A stretch of DNA of 21,859 nucleotides from IMG/VR virus record IMGVR_UViG_3300009508_000074, positions 1 to 21,859 of that record, one strand, 5' to 3'. The notes beneath the pieces were generated by a model. The model made no database searches. It was not told the DNA's origin and worked only from the letters and a program-made list of their open reading frames with translations. Made by a program: the position numbers and the translations under genes. The stretch is from a virus. This document shows, piece by piece, positions 8,297-21,418 of the stretch (the stretch's first letter is position 1; every line of letters starts with the position of its first letter).

Positions 8297-11200
8297 TTAG
8301 ACTACTCCGCTATTTGGTGCAGTTCGCAACTGCGTACCAGTAAGTGCATCAATTACCTGTACATCGTTAACTGTGGCTGCATTAACAAATATCTCATTTG
8401 CTTGTGAGCGTATTTCATATAAATCACCAAACGATTTAAGAGGATCAGTTGGTACTAATACCACCGAACTAATAATACTTCCTAATCTGTCATGTAAATA
8501 TGCACTTAGCTCACTAAAGAAAAACGTATCACCAAAATCCCAGTTCTCTATAGTAAAATAAGTGTTCATTGCACTAACAACTTGACTTTTAATTTCACTA
8601 ACACTAGCAGTACTTGCTGTATTTTTTACACACTTGATAGTGGCTTGTAGTTCAACTGATGCTTTTGTTCCAAACAACGGTTTAAAAGTTACACTATTTA
8701 AAATAATATTATCACTGATCATCTTGTATTGATCAAGTGTACTATAACTAGTTGTTAGTTCGTCGATTGTAGGTTTTGTTGGTTCAGTTACAGTTCCTGT
8801 ACTGTCGCGTATGTAATTTTGATAAGCAATATAATATGATTGTGTTACTAGATACAAATCAATGATATTTGTTGTGCCTGGATCAATACGTCTACTCAAC
8901 GGAGCATTGTGGCGATACTGAAAATACAATCCCTGCCTTCCTGTATATGTTTGGTATCCAGTTACTAGTACTATAGTTCTTGTTCCTTCATAGTCAACTG
9001 TCAGTTGATAGAACTTTTCGTCTGTATATGCATAAAACACTTGCTTGTCTGCATACTCGCTTTTCACAAGTTCAATTGCAGATTTTGTTGCAAAAGAACC
9101 AATTACTACACCTTCTGCTAATGGCAAATATCTTTCTAAGTTATCAAAGTCAATTGTCTGTTGCAAATAGATTCTCTTGTTGTTCGGGTTGACAGTTGGA
9201 GCAACAAGTGTTTGAAAATAATCTGGATTGTCTGGTATACCGTCATTGTCAGAATCTTTGTATGATATTCTGACTCTAAAGTCATCTACAAAACCATCTG
9301 CTTCTACAGGCTGGTCAATAATGTCTAAAACTTCATCACTGTTAAGTGTTGCACTGCTATCGGGTAAGTTGTTCGTTTTTAAGACATTAATAAAATCATT
9401 TATCACTGTGCCTGTCTTTGGATCATAAACTTTTTGTGTACCATCATAGAAAAACCGTGTTTCTAAAACACTAGCCCAAAATCTCTGTAAACTACGTGAA
9501 CTTACTGTGTAAGTTACTCCATCAGTTTCAAAAGCAACCAACCAACTATTGTCTAAACCTGTACCTGAAGTGTTTTGTGCATTTGTAAGACTAAAAGTAA
9601 TGGCTGGATTTAAGTTTGTGGTTGTGATTACATACCAAGTTCCGGTTAAATTATTATATCCTAATCCAAAATCTCGATACAATTCAATGTTTTCACGCAT
9701 TGTGGTTTCGATTGCGGTTGGTAAATCTGTAATAAAGTTTGGAATAACCTCTGTTGGAATTGCATTAGTTGGAATAAAATTATTAAGTGTTACAGGACCT
9801 GTGCCATCAGCATTATTACCAACTCCAAAATTTGTACCATCAAGTTCTAATGCAGTAACAGTTGCCCACAACACCATTTTATCACCAGGTAATGTTGGAG
9901 ATCCAACTGCAAGCCTATTGGTAGCAGTAAAATATTGTCCAGTTGGTGGAGTAAATTTTACCAGCCCGCCTTGAGCAATATATTTCTTATTGTCACTTGC
10001 CTGCGGTCCAACTGGTGCAGGTGCATTGTTCGATACAAACCTAAAAAATCCAGTGGTTTCATTGTTACTTGTGGTACTCTGGCTCCAGTTTAGATTTAAT
10101 ACTGTTAACGAAGGACGTGTGAAGTTTTGATAGTAAAACTCTTGCATTCCTCTACTTGATATTACAGGTTCAACTTGATTAACAATAACATCAGTAATAT
10201 CATTTTGATCAACAAATGTAAAAGTAAAACTTGGCACAGCAGTATTTTCGTATATCATGCCATCACTAGCAAAAACATTTGTACTTGAATATTTTCCAGT
10301 GATATCAACAAGATCCAAGTATCTACTAGTACCAATTGAGCTTCTGTTTACGGCTTTGGACTTGATTATAGTTGAATAAAGTGTATATGGAAAATTATTG
10401 TAATCTTCACCGTTTACCATTCTGTTTTGCGTATAAAATCTAGCAGGAGCACGTTGTTTAATATCGTTAATATTTTCTCTATTAGCGGCATTGCTTACTG
10501 GTTGTGTCAAAGCACATGTAAAAGTAAGTGTTTCATTCCTACCTGTACGACTTACATAGCCAATCGAGATAGTTACGTTTTGCATCTCATCTTGATTGAT
10601 AATATAACTTAATCCGTTACTAGCACGTACATAAGTTCTGAAACTGCCAACTGGTATGCTACTAAACACGCCATCGCCAAAGTTTAAATTGATTTGATCA
10701 TTTGTTCTAGAACTTATTGTAAAGTACCGACGTTGCTCAGGAGTAAGCTCTTCAACTGCACCTGAGTATATGTTTTCAACATATTCCCATTCATTCTCAA
10801 TATTTCCTTGAGAATTAAGTTGATATAACCAAACATCTTCGTTATTGATTCCTTCGATGTTGACATTTACAACCCTGTTTGATATTCTTTCTCCTAAATT
10901 AAAATCTAAATCTTGTAGACTTCCTTGTTTAAATAAAAAGAAAAAGCCAGTGTTTGCACTAGCATAACCTTGTTTATCATTTCTATACAATATGTTAAAT
11001 GCCCCATTTGGAGCAGGTGAAGGTTCGTATACATATGTTTTGTTTTGAGATGTAGCACATACTGCTTCAAAACCCATTGAAGTTCCGTTTATTGTGCTTG
11101 TAAACGGTATCACTGGCAAGAATCCTTGCAGTAGATTTATAGCATATTCGTCTGTTTGGACACCTAGTATAGTTTGTGAATTTGCTGGACGTCCAAAACG

Positions 11201-11704
11201 CTGACTGTTATCCAAAGCTGCATTTATTATAACTGTGAATTGTTCTAACCAATTTGCATTTGTAGTATCATTCCAATTGATTGTGATATTTGATAAATTG
11301 ACACCAGTAAAGTCAACTACACCTTCTGTGGTGCTTATGCTTTGTACTTTTAAAAAGCCTGATGCTGCAGTGTTACGCTTTGGTGTGTAACTTACTAGTT
11401 CTGCTAGTCGATTGACACTGTCTCTACGTTCAGCAGTGTCGATAAAATTCTCTCTTGTGTTTAGGTCATTTCTAAAACTACCAGCTTGGCCCATAAATGC
11501 CATAACATCAAGCAGTGCTATAAATTCACTTGACTCAATATAGTCGTTAAAACTCTCTGGGTAATATAAACGAATGTAGTCTATAAAGCTCTTACGTAGT
11601 GTTTCAAAGTCATAACTTTGAAAGTCTGCTTCGCGGTAAGTTTGGTAAATTCTCTTCCAATCCTCAACCCCAAATATACTAGTTTGTCTTGTAGTCTTAG
11701 CCAT
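8297..11704 (-). CDS. gp6: Baseplate wedge protein gp6
   Basis: This 1135-residue protein is the gp6 wedge component, which forms the inner ring of the baseplate around the hub and changes shape when the sheath contracts. The N-terminus (DWKRIYQTYREADFQSYDFETL, then YYPESFNDYIESSEFIALLDVMAFMG) carries the conserved start of marine T4-like gp6. The C-terminal part (residues about 990-1110, VTFKPLFGTKASVELQATI through the FFFSELSAYLHD region) fits the baseplate-J-type domain. T4 gp6 is 660 residues, so a large middle expansion is present. It includes DSDNDGIPDNPDYF at about residues 816-829, a calcium-binding-type Asp repeat. AAGGAA at 11711-11716 lies six bases before the ATG, and a late promoter element lies just upstream. 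The stop is one base from the start of the giant gene, suggesting coupled translation. Confidence 0.93.
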   Translation of the reverse strand: MAKTTRQTSIFGVEDWKRIYQTYREADFQSYDFETLRKSFIDYIRLYYPESFNDYIESSEFIALLDVMAFMGQAGSFRNDLNTRENFIDTAERRDSVNRLAELVSYTPKRNTAASGFLKVQSISTTEGVVDFTGVNLSNITINWNDTTNANWLEQFTVIINAALDNSQRFGRPANSQTILGVQTDEYAINLLQGFLPVIPFTSTINGTSMGFEAVCATSQNKTYVYEPSPAPNGAFNILYRNDKQGYASANTGFFFLFKQGSLQDLDFNLGERISNRVVNVNIEGINNEDVWLYQLNSQGNIENEWEYVENIYSGAVEELTPEQRRYFTISSRTNDQINLNFGDGVFSSIPVGSFRTYVRASNGLSYIINQDEMQNVTISIGYVSRTGRNETLTFTCALTQPVSNAANRENINDIKQRAPARFYTQNRMVNGEDYNNFPYTLYSTIIKSKAVNRSSIGTSRYLDLVDITGKYSSTNVFASDGMIYENTAVPSFTFTFVDQNDITDVIVNQVEPVISSRGMQEFYYQNFTRPSLTVLNLNWSQSTTSNNETTGFFRFVSNNAPAPVGPQASDNKKYIAQGGLVKFTPPTGQYFTATNRLAVGSPTLPGDKMVLWATVTALELDGTNFGVGNNADGTGPVTLNNFIPTNAIPTEVIPNFITDLPTAIETTMRENIELYRDFGLGYNNLTGTWYVITTTNLNPAITFSLTNAQNTSGTGLDNSWLVAFETDGVTYTVSSRSLQRFWASVLETRFFYDGTQKVYDPKTGTVINDFINVLKTNNLPDSSATLNSDEVLDIIDQPVEADGFVDDFRVRISYKDSDNDGIPDNPDYFQTLVAPTVNPNNKRIYLQQTIDFDNLERYLPLAEGVVIGSFATKSAIELVKSEYADKQVFYAYTDEKFYQLTVDYEGTRTIVLVTGYQTYTGRQGLYFQYRHNAPLSRRIDPGTTNIIDLYLVTQSYYIAYQNYIRDSTGTVTEPTKPTIDELTTSYSTLDQYKMISDNIILNSVTFKPLFGTKASVELQATIKCVKNTASTASVSEIKSQVVSAMNTYFTIENWDFGDTFFFSELSAYLHDRLGSIISSVVLVPTDPLKSFGDLYEIRSQANEIFVNAATVNDVQVIDALTGTQLRTAPNSGVV

Positions 11705-11722: not shown

Positions 11723-11730
11723 TATTTATC
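11723..11730 (-). promoter_or_regulatory. T4-type late promoter element upstream of gp6
   Basis: GATAAATA on the minus strand differs at one base from the T4 late consensus TATAAATA, which is recognised by gp55. It lies in the 51-base spacer between gp25 and gp6. Transcription would start about six bases further on, leaving a leader of roughly 20 bases that contains the gp6 ribosome site. The palindrome at 11737-11754 sits six bases upstream, as also happens upstream of gp48. Confidence 0.7.
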
Positions 11731-11736
11731 TACAAA

Positions 11737-11754
11737 ATAAACTACGTAGTTTAT
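11737..11754. repeat. Perfect 18-bp palindrome upstream of the gp6 late promoter
   Basis: ATAAACTACGTAGTTTAT reads the same on both strands, with two 9-base arms and no loop. It starts one base after the gp25 stop codon and ends six bases before GATAAATA. A diverged copy (15 of 18 bases identical) stands at 20450-20467 at exactly the same distance from another late element. The shared spacing favours a promoter or operator element over a terminator, although a short T-run follows it on the minus strand. Confidence 0.85.
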
Positions 11755-12140: not shown

Positions 12141-12148
12141 TATTTATG
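12141..12148 (-). promoter_or_regulatory. Possible late promoter element before gp25
   Basis: CATAAATA on the minus strand is the same octamer found before gp48. It overlaps the gp5 stop and ends four bases before the gp25 ATG, so a transcript starting at the usual distance would be essentially leaderless. It lacks the AACTACGYAGTT box present upstream of the other two late elements. It may be a weak promoter or chance. Confidence 0.3.
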
Positions 12149-17671: not shown

Positions 17672-17977
17672 TTAGATTCCTAATACTGATTTTAGTGTAG
17701 CTTCTTGAGGCAGATAAATTGTTGTGCCAATTGTAAAATCAAACAAAGGATCTTGCAATTGATTTGGATTACGTTGTGCAAATACCCACCAAAGATTTGA
17801 ATCACCGTATAAGTCAAATGCCAAAAGATCAGGACGCAGGTTATAAGTTTCGTTAATGGTAAAACTTAAATCATCAATGAGTTTTGGTATTGGTCTATCA
17901 ACCATAACGCCAAGATATTGATTTTGAACTATTGGAGTATCGAAATATGGACTTGTACTTGCATAGGAATTGGCCAT
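17672..17977 (-). CDS. gp53: Baseplate wedge protein gp53
   Basis: This 101-residue protein is gp53, the wedge subunit that packs against gp6 and gp25. The sequence shows SPYFDTPIVQNQYLGVMVD, a linker, and then a LysM-like fold: YNLRPDLLAFDLYGDSNLWW, VFAQRNPNQL and a final GTTIYLP. YGD-(x)3-WW-(x)4-RN-(x)n-G-(x)3-YLP is the family signature. T4 gp53 is 196 residues, so this is a short form like those of marine T4-like phages. Its ATG overlaps the gp48 stop (TAATG), implying translational coupling. AAAGGA at 17986-17991 is eight bases upstream, inside gp48. Confidence 0.92.
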   Translation of the reverse strand: MANSYASTSPYFDTPIVQNQYLGVMVDRPIPKLIDDLSFTINETYNLRPDLLAFDLYGDSNLWWVFAQRNPNQLQDPLFDFTIGTTIYLPQEATLKSVLGI

Positions 17978-20418
17978 TACCAGAATCCTTTCTTGATTAG
18001 GTTACCATTTGCGTATTCTTGAAGGCTAAACACTTGACTGACTGCTTGTCTACTTACGATTGGTAAGAGGTTAATAGTCATTGACATCTTGGTTGGTACA
18101 TAGGTAGCACCTTTTGATCCTAAGTTTCCTGGCGATGGCTTAAAAGGTTGAGCACCTGCCTGCAATGGTTCACTGCCCCCGTTAAGTGCGTTTGTTACTG
18201 CGGTCTTAAGCCTGTTTAATGCACTAAAATTGCCATTTGAAGTTGCAGTTGCTAGAGGTTTTTGAAACTGCAACTGATCATCCCTGTTTATATGTCTACT
18301 TCTTGCACGTATATAGTTAACATCACTAGGTAGGTTGTAGTTAAATTCAGTAATTGCACAAGGGGACTCGTTGAACTGATATTCTCCTAACCCTGTGAGA
18401 TATAACAAAGGCGGAGGCGAACCTCGTTGTGCATCTTGTCCGTAGAACATTTTACTTGCACTTTTTAGAAAATGTATACATGCTAAAAGATATTCTGCTT
18501 CAACAGTATCCTGTGCAGTAAATTCTGCTTGAAGTTGTACAGTTTGTACACTTGAATTTTTGTAAAAATAATGTTGATAGTTACTGTGTGTTGGCGAATA
18601 CGCATTGTACTCTGCTCTGTACTGTACGTCTATAGTGGGTGTATATGGAAAAATAATTCCATCAGTAATAGCTAATGGTGCAAGTATGCCCGGATCAGGT
18701 GCTTTGTACAGATAGGTTGCTTGCGGAGCTAGACGGAGCTTAACACGCCAATCGCCATCTGCGTTTTTTACACCAGATGCTTCTCGCATTTCATTAACAG
18801 TTTGTTGTTGTCTAGCTTTTTCTTTCAGTGCTTGTGCATCAAGTGCGGCCTGTTCTGGTCCATCGAGACCTGCCGTAGCATCACCAGGTGCAACTGTTTC
18901 ATCATCTATTTCACCAACTGGGTCGTCACCTACAAGACTTTCACCATCATTGTCAACACGATCTTCAGGTGCTAATATTGGATTTCCAAACTCATCAAAT
19001 TGTGCAACTTCACCGTCACCAAAGTCGTCTACTCCAAAAGGATTGACTTCGGCAGGACTACGTCTTGGATCACCAAAGTCATCAACTTGCCCCAATGGGT
19101 TGTTATCACCAAAGTCGTCTACGCCAAATTGGTTTACTTGATTTGGAGATGCAAAGTCACTAAAGTCTTCTTCATCTGCTATACCAAAGTCATTGTTACT
19201 GTATTCATCAAAGTCGTCTACTTGAGCAGGTGTGTTTATCTCACCAAAGTCATCTACTTGTGCACCAAAGTCGTTGTTGCTATAATCAGCAAAGTCGTCT
19301 ACTTGTGCTGGTTCTGGTCCAGGTCCAAATGCATCTAAACCTGGGTCCTCTGCACCAAAGTCGTTGTTTGAATATCCAGCAAAATCGTCAACTTGAGCTG
19401 GTGTGTTAATTTCAGCAAAGTCGTCTACTTGTGCTGGTGCTTGATACTCAGCAAAGTCGTCTACTTGTGCTGGTGCTTGAAATTCTGCAAAATCATCAAC
19501 TTGTGGTGGAACTGCAGATCCAGAGAAATCATCAACCTGTGTTATATTACGACTAGGCCCGCCAAAGTCATCAACTTGTGTAATACCAGTACCACCAAAG
19601 TCGTCAACTTGGGATATTTCTTGTGCTGGTCTGGATGGAGGTGGTGCAGGAGCATTTATATCCGGTCTAGGAGTAGGTTGTTCAACATTTACATTATCAT
19701 CTGGAAAATCGTCAAGATACGGACTAGGCGGTGTACCAGGACGTCTAGTATCTACTGGTATTGGCTGAGGATTTCTAAAATTCTCGCTATAAGGATCTGC
19801 AAAATCAACTTCTGTATTATTTGACTCTACTACTGGTGCAGGTATAGGTGTTGCTTGCCTATAATTTTCTCCATATGCATCAGTAAAATCTACATCTGAA
19901 TCTTGAGGTTGTACTGGCCTAGGTGGCGGTGGTGCTGGAAATGGGTCAGGAGCTGGTGTTCTATCGCTAAATGCTTGACTTGCAATAGTACCACCGCCTT
20001 GAAATGCAGTGCCCGAGCCTGTGGTATTTGTTACAGTTTCTGATGAGGCTGGTGATGTTACTGTTGGAGTTGTAGGTGTTGTAAACGGCCTACCTGTAAC
20101 TGGATTTATTCTTGTATTTGATGTTGAACTTGATGGCGATGTTACAGTTGGTGTTGGTGTAGTTGTACCAGTAAATGCAGATCCTGATCCAGGAGTCGTC
20201 CTTGGAGTATCAGTTGATTGAACATTCTGCGAGCGTTCACTGGTTACACGACCAAAGTTAGCATTAGCCGCACGTGTACCCACGCTATCAGTTGTGTAGT
20301 TGCCATATTCACTTGAAGGAATATTAGCCAAATCAAACAAAGTACCAAGAGGTGCCTTTGGATACTGTTGTGCTAGTGCGTTCATTCTAGCGGCTTTTTT
20401 TGGATCGTAACCAGCCAT
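17977..20418 (-). CDS. gp48: Tail tube cap protein gp48 with large repetitive N-terminal extension
   Basis: I place the start at the ATG at 20416-20418 (813 residues). AGGAG lies five bases before it, while the longer frame needs a TTG at 20451 that is upstream of the late promoter element. Residues about 545-813 are the gp48 core, with GDWRVKLRLAPQATYLYKAP, ILAPLAITDGIIFPYTP, YSPTHSNYQHYFYKNSSVQ, FTAQDTVEAEYLLACIHFLK and the end TINLLPIVSRQAVSQVFSLQ. gp48 caps the baseplate hub and, with gp54, starts tail tube growth. T4 gp48 is 364 residues. The first 545 residues are an extension: a short helical N-terminus (YDPKKAARMNALAQQYP), a Ser/Thr/Pro-rich part, a Pro-rich part with paired DVDF/EVDF units, an acidic QVDDF array at about 268-490, and a Glu/Asp-rich linker. 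The extension looks disordered and its role is unknown. It is first in the late block, and gp53 overlaps its end. Confidence 0.85.
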   Translation of the reverse strand: MAGYDPKKAARMNALAQQYPKAPLGTLFDLANIPSSEYGNYTTDSVGTRAANANFGRVTSERSQNVQSTDTPRTTPGSGSAFTGTTTPTPTVTSPSSSTSNTRINPVTGRPFTTPTTPTVTSPASSETVTNTTGSGTAFQGGGTIASQAFSDRTPAPDPFPAPPPPRPVQPQDSDVDFTDAYGENYRQATPIPAPVVESNNTEVDFADPYSENFRNPQPIPVDTRRPGTPPSPYLDDFPDDNVNVEQPTPRPDINAPAPPPSRPAQEISQVDDFGGTGITQVDDFGGPSRNITQVDDFSGSAVPPQVDDFAEFQAPAQVDDFAEYQAPAQVDDFAEINTPAQVDDFAGYSNNDFGAEDPGLDAFGPGPEPAQVDDFADYSNNDFGAQVDDFGEINTPAQVDDFDEYSNNDFGIADEEDFSDFASPNQVNQFGVDDFGDNNPLGQVDDFGDPRRSPAEVNPFGVDDFGDGEVAQFDEFGNPILAPEDRVDNDGESLVGDDPVGEIDDETVAPGDATAGLDGPEQAALDAQALKEKARQQQTVNEMREASGVKNADGDWRVKLRLAPQATYLYKAPDPGILAPLAITDGIIFPYTPTIDVQYRAEYNAYSPTHSNYQHYFYKNSSVQTVQLQAEFTAQDTVEAEYLLACIHFLKSASKMFYGQDAQRGSPPPLLYLTGLGEYQFNESPCAITEFNYNLPSDVNYIRARSRHINRDDQLQFQKPLATATSNGNFSALNRLKTAVTNALNGGSEPLQAGAQPFKPSPGNLGSKGATYVPTKMSMTINLLPIVSRQAVSQVFSLQEYANGNLIKKGFW
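18955..19615 (-). repeat. QVDDF tandem repeat array inside gp48
   Basis: The translated region contains QVDDF eleven times, plus two GVDDFGD units and one QFDEFG. Typical units are PAQVDDFAEYQA and PAQVDDFAEINT, with a 12-residue (36-base) period in the most regular part. Longer units add NNDFGA or NNDFGI. Synonymous codons differ between copies (GAC GAC and GAT GAT, GTA and GTT), so the protein motif has been conserved while the DNA diverged. This indicates an old expansion under selection rather than a recent slippage event. The array is strongly acidic with one regularly placed Phe per unit. Confidence 0.92.
19755..19905 (-). repeat. Two-copy DVDF/EVDF unit in gp48 extension
   Basis: Two adjacent units of about 30 residues read DVDFTDAYGENYRQATPIP and EVDFADPYSENFRNPQPIP. 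They share VDF-x-D-x-Y-x-EN-Y/F-R and a PIP end, and precede the QVDDF array. They look like a related, more diverged acidic-aromatic repeat. Confidence 0.75.
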
Positions 20419-20435: not shown

Positions 20436-20443
20436 TATTTATG
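20436..20443 (-). promoter_or_regulatory. T4-type late promoter element for the tail block (gp48 onward)
   Basis: CATAAATA on the minus strand matches the T4 late consensus TATAAATA at seven of eight bases. Transcription should begin near 20430, giving a leader of about a dozen bases that just includes the AGGAG site. The element is preceded at six bases by the AACTACGCAGTT box (20450-20467). It faces away from the gp55 promoter. Confidence 0.78.
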
Positions 20444-20449
20444 CTCACC

Positions 20450-20467
20450 AAAAACTGCGTAGTTAAT
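20450..20467. promoter_or_regulatory. Imperfect palindrome between the divergent promoters
   Basis: On the minus strand this reads ATTAACTACGCAGTTTTT; its core AACT-ACGC-AGTT is a near-palindrome. It matches the perfect palindrome at 11737-11754 at 15 of 18 positions and holds the same six-base distance to a late element. Its other end is two bases from the -35 box of the plus-strand promoter, so a protein bound here could affect both directions. Confidence 0.7.
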
Positions 20468-20469
20468 GA

Positions 20470-20498
20470 TTGACTTCTGATAAGTAATGTTGTATAAT
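20470..20498 (+). promoter_or_regulatory. Sigma-70-type promoter for gp55-gp47
   Basis: TTGACT at 20470-20475 and TATAAT at 20493-20498 are separated by exactly 17 bases, five of six and six of six matches to the host sigma-70 consensus. The start would be near 20505, leaving a leader of about 23 bases. It reads into gp55 and implies expression by unmodified host polymerase, early in infection. Confidence 0.9.
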
Positions 20499-20527: not shown

Positions 20528-21418
20528 ATGCCACAGGTGAGAACACCTAGAAAAGTAAACTATCTAAACAACAGAGACATACTGAAAGAAGTTTGGAAAA
20601 GCAAAAACACTTTCTGTTCATATTTAGAACGTGAATATGCACAGTATGATATAATTTTACCAAGTGTTGACAAAATTAATCAACGTACTGTTGCAGAAGC
20701 AAGACGCAATAAAGCAGATCGTATCAAAAGAGAAACTGGCGAGATTGTTGATCCTGTTAAACTTAACAATCAAGAATTGGTATTCAGAGTAATTTGCTGG
20801 GATCATATCCCAATGGTGCCAAAGAAACTCACCAAAGCACAGCAAAAGAAAAAATCCAAACTTGAAGAACTTCTAGAAATGGACGATGTGGACATCGAAG
20901 ATGATGGATTACAAGAACTTATGAGCGACGTTGAACAAGATCTCAACTATGTTAAATTAAACTTTCCTCCTTTTTGGCACTACATGATTGATGAAAATCG
21001 TGTGCCATATGTTGTTGGCAAATCACATTGGATTGGTGGTATGGAAAACGGATATTTTTCAAAAGATCATGGCAAAATGACAGACAAACTAGCACACATG
21101 TTTATAAAACTGTGTGAACGTTATGCAACAAGGTCAAACTGGCGTGGTTATACATATAACGAAGAAATGCGTGGACAAGCACTGTTGCAACTTAGTCAAA
21201 TTGGGCTACAATTTGATGAGAGCAAGTCGCAAAATCCATTTGCATACTATACCGCAACCATCACAAATAGTTTTACCAGAGTGTTGAACATAGAAAAGAA
21301 AAACCAAAACATAAGAGATGATATACTTGAACAAAATGGGTTGAATCCAAGTTGGACAAGACAGTTTAACAACTCACCAGATGCAAAAAAACTACAACCA
21401 GAAGCGACTAAAAAATAG
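20528..21418 (+). CDS. gp55: Late-transcription sigma factor gp55, enlarged by an internal insertion
   Basis: This 296-residue protein is gp55, the sigma-like subunit that directs host RNA polymerase to phage late promoters. The C-terminal part from about residue 183 is diagnostic: DKLAHMFIKLCERYATRSNW, RGYTYNEEMRGQALLQL, FDESKSQNPFAYYTATITNS and FTRVLNIEKKNQNIRDDILE. These correspond to the sigma region-2-like core of T4 gp55 (GYT, FDETK-x-KNPHAY). The N-terminus (NYLNNRDILKEVW) matches the T4 start NYVNNKELLQAI. T4 gp55 is 185 residues. The excess is an insertion of roughly 130 residues between these parts, containing ELVFRVICWDHIP, a Lys-rich helix (KKLTKAQQKKKSKLEELLEM), an acidic stretch and FPPFWHYMIDENRVPYVVGK. 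It has its own sigma-70-type promoter and strong ribosome site. gp47 follows after eight bases. Confidence 0.9.
   Translation: MPQVRTPRKVNYLNNRDILKEVWKSKNTFCSYLEREYAQYDIILPSVDKINQRTVAEARRNKADRIKRETGEIVDPVKLNNQELVFRVICWDHIPMVPKKLTKAQQKKKSKLEELLEMDDVDIEDDGLQELMSDVEQDLNYVKLNFPPFWHYMIDENRVPYVVGKSHWIGGMENGYFSKDHGKMTDKLAHMFIKLCERYATRSNWRGYTYNEEMRGQALLQLSQIGLQFDESKSQNPFAYYTATITNSFTRVLNIEKKNQNIRDDILEQNGLNPSWTRQFNNSPDAKKLQPEATKK

Follow-up and report, generated by a model that had tools for sequence, protein, structure and literature searches.

Transcription of the late genes of bacteriophage T4 is the textbook example of promoters that consist of a single short element and whose output is set by replication via the gp45 clamp. 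T4 middle promoters have a MotA box near -30, at fixed spacing to the -10 element, and depend on a separate activator. The T4 protein DsbA, a DNA-binding protein of ~10 kDa, has sites that overlap two late promoters, according to the available part of one account (PMC2988020), and in jumbo-phage subgroup 2.2 DsbA is reported, in the portion available, as a GapR homolog (PMC7824862). For phage CBB, the accessible excerpt describes an ATAAATA motif at 35 places, predicted for late genes and also reported for phage GAP32 (PMC5259590).

The DNA analyzed here, referred to as the window, is the stretch of 21,859 nucleotides that forms positions 1 to 21,859 of IMG/VR virus record IMGVR_UViG_3300009508_000074. 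Megablast of the window matched no phage record, and protein searches placed it near the jumbo T4-like phages PA5oct, RaK2, GAP32, Atu_ph07, Phosso, and SCTP-2, with gp6 identities of 38-40% over the first 400 residues.

Two boxed late promoters in the window

The window encodes a gp55-family late sigma factor and contains three copies of ATAAATA, all on the minus strand, upstream of gp6, gp25 (12141), and a gene that we call gp48-like; each of these TATAAATA-type -10 elements precedes a structural gene. The relevant features are as follows.

8297..11704 (-): gp6 baseplate wedge gene (phrog_10646, E 5e-278)
11723..11730 (-): late-promoter element of gp6, GATAAATA, 10 bases from the box core
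11737..11754 (-): palindromic box of gp6, ATAAACTACGTAGTTTAT, 18 bp, with a 12-base core at 11740-11751 (direct reading)
12141..12148 (-): late element of gp25, CATAAATA, without a box, the internal control (motif search and alignment)
17672-17977: gp53-like gene adjoining the gp48-like gene (phrog_7145, baseplate wedge)
17977..20418 (-): gp48-like gene, first of a baseplate operon (phrog_12050, 'virion structural protein', E 5e-51, and gene order)
20436..20443 (-): late-promoter element of the gp48-like gene, CATAAATA (direct reading)
20450..20467 (-): box of the gp48-like gene, ATTAACTACGCAGTTTTT, core 20453-20464 (direct reading)
20470..20498 (+): sigma70-type promoter of gp55, TTGACT, 17 bases, TATAAT, with the box core 5 bases away
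20528..21418 (+): gene for the late sigma factor gp55, oriented divergently to the gp48-like gene (phrog_12791, 'sigma factor for late transcription', E 2e-75)

Before gp6 the minus strand reads ATAAACTACGTAGTTTAT-TTTGTA-GATAAATA (11754-11723), and before the gp48-like gene it reads ATTAACTACGCAGTTTTT-GGTGAG-CATAAATA (20467-20436). The two 32-mers are identical at 24 of 32 positions, and at 17 of 25 when the common ATAAATA is set aside (P ~1.3e-5 under independent composition), so that the pairing of box and late element at these two genes, first pointed out in the initial annotation, is correct and above chance. The 32-mer of gp25, a gene whose PHROG label is also baseplate wedge, matches that of gp6 at 17 of 32 positions, seven of which are the shared ATAAATA. 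An exact AACTACGYAGTT is found in the window only at the gp6 and gp48-like sites. With three mismatches allowed, the motif was found 57 times vs 43 expected, a number reached by 7 of 100 shuffles; over-representation at this level is not clear, and the window alone could not settle the matter.

The name gp48-like rests on gene order, because the PHROG label says only 'virion structural protein' and a PDB profile search with the family gave no convincing relative (one match, a chitinase, E 0.05); the initial annotation had called the gene gp48. The gp48-like protein (17977-20418) has a long N-terminal extension with many QVDDFGDY-type repeats, and none of these appear within residues 1-160 of the shorter relatives compared.

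The gp6 palindrome sits between the gp25 stop codon and gp6, beginning right after that stop codon and followed by TTTT, as might be expected of a terminator or RNA hairpin belonging to gp25. However, the stem is A+T-rich, and neither of the divergent transcripts predicted from local promoters includes the gp48-like box. A chance palindrome is excluded by the conservation and spacing described below, and we regard a hairpin or a coincidence as scarcely credible.

Conservation of the box and of its spacing

The element is real and widely conserved among phages. In IMG/VR, 66 loci encode close gp25 relatives, and the gp25-gp6 gap was readable in 64 of them (the incomplete L043 and L068 were left out), giving 36 distinct sequences. 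A box score of at least 8 was obtained for 35 of the 36, each at gap 10 to ATAAATA, and the remaining type (L065-L067) scored -5.7; G007-type contigs are without a gp6 box. As the 12 sites behind the weight matrix come from these same four gene classes (gp6, gp48-like, X, and Y, described below), its scores show position, not independent presence. Across the gp6 loci the center of the core varies (ACGT, GCGT, ACCC, GCCC), with the flanking AACT and AGTT and the outer A/T positions mostly kept. The gp6 dyad is 81% paired over 8 pairs at the true center vs 2-46% at shifted centers (31 distinct rows), the paired fraction of the gp48-like dyad is 0.47 at its true center (59 rows), and for both genes pairing is lower at all 12 shifts.

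For the gp48-like gene, the best 80 of 599 gp55 loci were taken, of which 74 were kept, with 63 distinct intergenic sequences. Of the sites upstream of a TAAATA, the one that scores best is at gap 10 in 58 of these 63 relatives. When the box was placed by weight matrix alone, with the late element ignored, 51 of the 63 passed the score and sigma70 filters, and the gap from box to late TAAATA was 10 in 50 of the 51 and 11 in one; the boxes of G001 and G003 score only 6. The prediction of a second, dyad box whose spacing to the late element is fixed is therefore borne out at both genes.

The gp48-like box also adjoins the divergent gp55 promoter, lying 5 bases upstream of TTGACT-17-TATAAT in the window, and it might instead serve the late sigma gene, as an operator or as an activator site. 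Among the divergent regions, however, the distance from the box to the TTGAC (-35) of gp55 is 5 (14 sequences), 9 (6), 10 (21), 11 (5), 12 (2), or 15 (3). Because the gap to the late element is constant whereas the -35 distance varies, the box is tied to the late promoter and not to the adjoining sigma70 promoter. As gp6 has a box with no divergent gene, ownership by the gp55 promoter is most improbable, although the box may have a dual role at the gp48-like/gp55 site.

IMG/VR was also scanned with the pattern AACTRCNYAGTT-N{0,28}-ATAAATA, in which the gap is free between 0 and 28. The 119 loci among the matches listed comprise 111 distinct ones, with gap 10 in 58, gap 11 in 17, and every other gap in at most 5. 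The control with a backward core (120 loci among the matches listed) had 12 of 107 at gap 10-11, the commonest gap being 26 (n=12). Still among the matches listed, 69 of the 75 distinct gap-10/11 sites have a downstream frame of at least 60 aa, and six are without a readable downstream gene. By PHROG labels taken from examples, the 69 readable genes are 33 gp6, 19 tail-tube-like, 14 gp48-like, and 3 single others; at 80% identity the three main classes form 12, 16, and 13 clusters, respectively. In the window's own lineage, the tube-like gene comes after the tube gene within an operon, and no box is present in the 89 bases examined (4 contigs).

Among cultured relatives, 146 TAAATA sites in stretches of PA5oct, SCTP-2, Phosso, Atu_ph07, RaK2, and GAP32 were scored at gap 9-12, and two score at least 8 in register. 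These are degenerate boxes, one in the gp25-gp6 promoter of Sinorhizobium meliloti phage Phosso (L133 near 3391; score 9.4, gap 9) and one in Agrobacterium phage Atu_ph07, at the promoter of the gp55-divergent operon (L135 near 2366; score 10.6, gap 10). The other scored gp6, gp25, and gp55-divergent promoters of the six phages are below zero or have no TAAATA in 110 bases, the latter being the case for the gp6 genes of PA5oct, SCTP-2, and RaK2. No in-register box was found in PA5oct, RaK2, and GAP32 (gp6, gp25, and gp55-divergent promoters scored) or in SCTP-2 (gp6 scored), in which the gp48-like gene was not found; likewise, none precedes gp6 or the gp48-like gene in GAP32, or the gp48-like gene in RaK2. 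A decayed or ancestral element may extend to cultured phages, for which the two sites are suggestive only.

Unboxed late promoters and the small genes X and Y

A candidate late promoter was defined as a TAAATA that has C or A as its next base and lies 8-50 bases ahead of a start preceded by a ribosome-binding-like motif, and six contigs yielded 111. An in-register score of at least 6 is found in 11 of them, before gp6 (5) or the gp48-like gene (6), leaving 100 of 111 without the box. In G002 the sheath, tube, portal, and neck genes (PHROG labels) have a late element and no box, and no late element occurs in the 70 bases examined before 143487, which by position is probably the capsid gene. The NATAAATAC profile over 83 promoters chosen on TAAATA, boxed ones included, has no column upstream of the late element above 0.26 bits, and the box was rejected as a general late-promoter element. 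The view that it is a lineage-wide feature of late promoters has thus to be given up, both on the promoter count and on the genes, sheath and tube among them, at which it was to be sought. Apart from gp6 and the gp48-like gene, the highest in-register score is 4.2, for a box-like stretch, one base shorter, that precedes a different gene in G004 (84978) and was not counted: the same promoter scores below zero in the orthologs of G001, G002, G003, and G005.

Because most candidate late promoters lack the box, a general late factor is an unlikely reader of it. Of the readers first proposed, gp55 itself and a gp33-like subunit have become unlikely, and a separate regulator fits best. A -35-like element read by gp55 or by a gp33/sigma4-like subunit, which would divide strong from weak late promoters, has in its favor that the position and one-base tolerance of the box mimic a -35 element, the tolerance of gap 10 or 11 resembling a -35/-10 spacer. 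The available part of the T4 account places gp33 close to the DNA at -39 and -36/-35 (PMC2988020), and gp33 orthologs with an HTH domain are described for jumbo-phage group 2 in the accessible text of PMC7824862. However, the site is a dyad, occurs at other distances on genes X and Y, and is confined to so few of the candidate late promoters; T4 gp33 binds no DNA sequence, as stated in that part of the T4 account (PMC2988020), and the gp33 family (PF16805) was over cut-off in none of 13 records, several of which are fragments. We consider this reading improbable.

The six-contig scan for sites before orthologous genes returned gp6, gp48-like/gp55, two small genes designated X and Y, and weaker sites. 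At gene Y (95-99 aa), the NATAAATA promoter carries two boxes in tandem in G001, G002, and G003, separated by 21 bp, or two helical turns. In 55 distinct gene Y sequences the best site is at gap 4-7 or 24-25, and gene Y sites among the matches listed in the free-gap scan have gaps 1, 5-7, 12, 14, and 15; gap 10 or 11 is absent from both sets, the second again among the matches listed. The spacing of the box to the late element is therefore not universal, gene Y departing from it. A test for chance-level occurrence at the expected spacing had been proposed at the outset: among the matches listed, the excess at gap 10-11 (75/111 vs 12/107 in the control) stands, and uniformity of spacing fails at gene Y. 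Protein Y (L230-L309), which mostly starts MSRPKP, is at least 80% identical over the best 80 of 321 phage loci and 43-61% identical in PA5oct, Phosso, Atu_ph07, and SCTP-2. It has no PDB sequence relative and one weak match to PHROG, none below 0.04; its AlphaFold model (pLDDT 65) has no convincing PDB fold.

Gene X (84 aa) belongs to phrog_13789, whose function is unassigned in PHROG. In 9 of 13 loci (L225 with one change) a box stands close upstream of the gene X start, the other four being visible for ~50 bases only, and the box follows closely on a TAAATA. In PA5oct a box-like site (score 14.8) directly follows GATAAATA before the gene preceding X, an arrangement shared with X in G004 and G005. 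The model of protein X has two helices (pLDDT 78), with no Foldseek match at E 0.001 and only weak PDB sequence matches. The predicted folds and sequence comparisons of X and Y would be compatible with DNA binding. A weak box-like site before the MNKFEQLIEYV.. gene adjoining the portal gene (G002 140.7 kb, G001 246647, G003 99518; score 6.7-11.6) was not counted as a member.

A putative regulator and its relation to known systems

The box has a dyad, is conserved, marks a particular set of genes, and keeps a gap of 10, sometimes 11. We propose that it is the putative site of a dimeric, sequence-specific regulator of T4-type late promoters, which by contact with the polymerase would raise the baseplate promoters, and we give this proposal about an even chance. 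The dimer would bind over the gp55/NATAAATA late promoters of a few genes, mainly gp6 and gp48-like, together with the tail-tube-like gene in other lineages and the small genes Y and X. Presuming that ATAAATA occupies -12 to -6 in T4 numbering, the dyad center would be ~28 bases upstream of the presumed start, at the sigma region 4/-35 position, where T4 gp55 and gp33 read nothing. Bound there, the protein would touch late RNA polymerase and form a composite promoter, and at Y and X, with their different spacing or a site that abuts the start region, the same protein would repress. Contact with the polymerase is argued from the constancy of the spacing at 10-11 over three gene classes, and occlusion from its variation at Y and from the location of the X box downstream. 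Both would be accommodated by a regulator whose effect depends on position, with activation at the baseplate genes and repression at X and Y; repression at all of them is almost equally likely.

A pure repressor operator, at which a dimeric phage or host repressor would block late RNA polymerase, delay or lower baseplate expression, and control X and Y, is a serious possibility, if not an explanation we would favor. Baseplate proteins are needed in few copies per virion. The box overlaps or adjoins the presumed polymerase footprint, at ~-28 for gp6, gp48-like, and tube-like genes, mostly closer at Y, and at about the start at X, and tandem boxes with the 21-bp spacing seen at Y are typical of autorepressed operators. 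The variable gap of gene Y and the gene X box downstream of TAAATA are more easily explained by a repressor than by an activator. Repression does not require an exact spacing, however, and the gap is 10-11 at two-thirds of the free-gap sites (75/111 among the matches listed, in three gene classes) and 10 at 50 of the 51 gp48-like regions that passed the filters, although the fixed gap could be partly inherited from one ancestral promoter. At the baseplate promoters, activation is somewhat more likely than repression.

One candidate reader of the box may be a DsbA/GapR-like phage protein. PF11126 (DsbA) matched frames of 91-100 aa in 6 of 13 records, with E values between 4e-5 and 0.008 that all fell short of the cut-off, and a model made from these six frames found clear orthologs in G001, G002, and G007 and none in the shorter contigs G003-G005. 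DsbA-like frames are also present in PA5oct and SCTP-2, where the gp6 box was not found, so co-occurrence is no proof of a link between DsbA and the box. Several of the genes for the DsbA/GapR-like small proteins (L437-L442, G001 59149-59400, G002 24479-24736) have, by eye, sigma70-like promoters upstream. HTH_3 was over cut-off in none of 13 records, and a Pfam scan of 141 G002 proteins, drawn from 182 conserved in G001 and of suitable length, found no HTH-type regulator among the families listed (25 of 29 and 25 of 46 in two of three lists). G002 also encodes an RNA polymerase omega-like protein (66380-66640; L072:6380-6640, +; PF01192, E 4e-6), with similar frames in G001, G003, G005, and G007, and, by Pfam, ClpP, ClpS, DnaJ, Hsp20, ferritin, superoxide dismutase, and an Hc1-like histone.

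The literature search found no earlier report of such a box, with most subscription papers and the PA5oct and Syn9 transcriptome papers outside its reach. More tentatively, the box may define a second class of T4-type late promoter, in which an activator at a dyad 10 bases upstream would replace the missing sigma4/-35 contact, so that one late sigma factor would serve a separate baseplate regulon under a regulator circuit that includes X and Y. Conservation of such an additional box, mainly at baseplate genes, would imply that late genes are divided into sub-programs in many T4-related phages, and the box provides a handle for finding the factor involved. In metagenomic phages it also serves as a sequence signature of baseplate operons, and its traces in two cultured phages make it testable. 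An extra box on the baseplate genes of a large, mostly uncultured group of T4-related phages suggests a protein that controls the timing or strength of baseplate production.

The boxed promoters resemble T4 middle promoters, whose MotA box likewise lies around -30 and keeps a constant distance from a -10 element, and differ from them in that the -10 element is of the late type and the box is a dyad. The likeness to T4 DsbA lies in the distantly similar small proteins of the jumbo phages examined; the part of the account available describes the DsbA sites as A/T-rich and of low affinity and mentions no 16-18 bp dyad fixed at 10 bases (PMC2988020). For the late promoter of CBB and GAP32, no box is mentioned in the accessible excerpt (PMC5259590). 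Like T4, with its gp55, gp33, and gp45, these phages have NATAAATA at late genes and a gp55 gene, and the great majority of their candidate late promoters have no in-register box. Unlike T4 late promoters, which in the available part of the account are without an upstream or -35 element (PMC2988020), those of gp6 and the gp48-like gene have a dyad box at a fixed distance.
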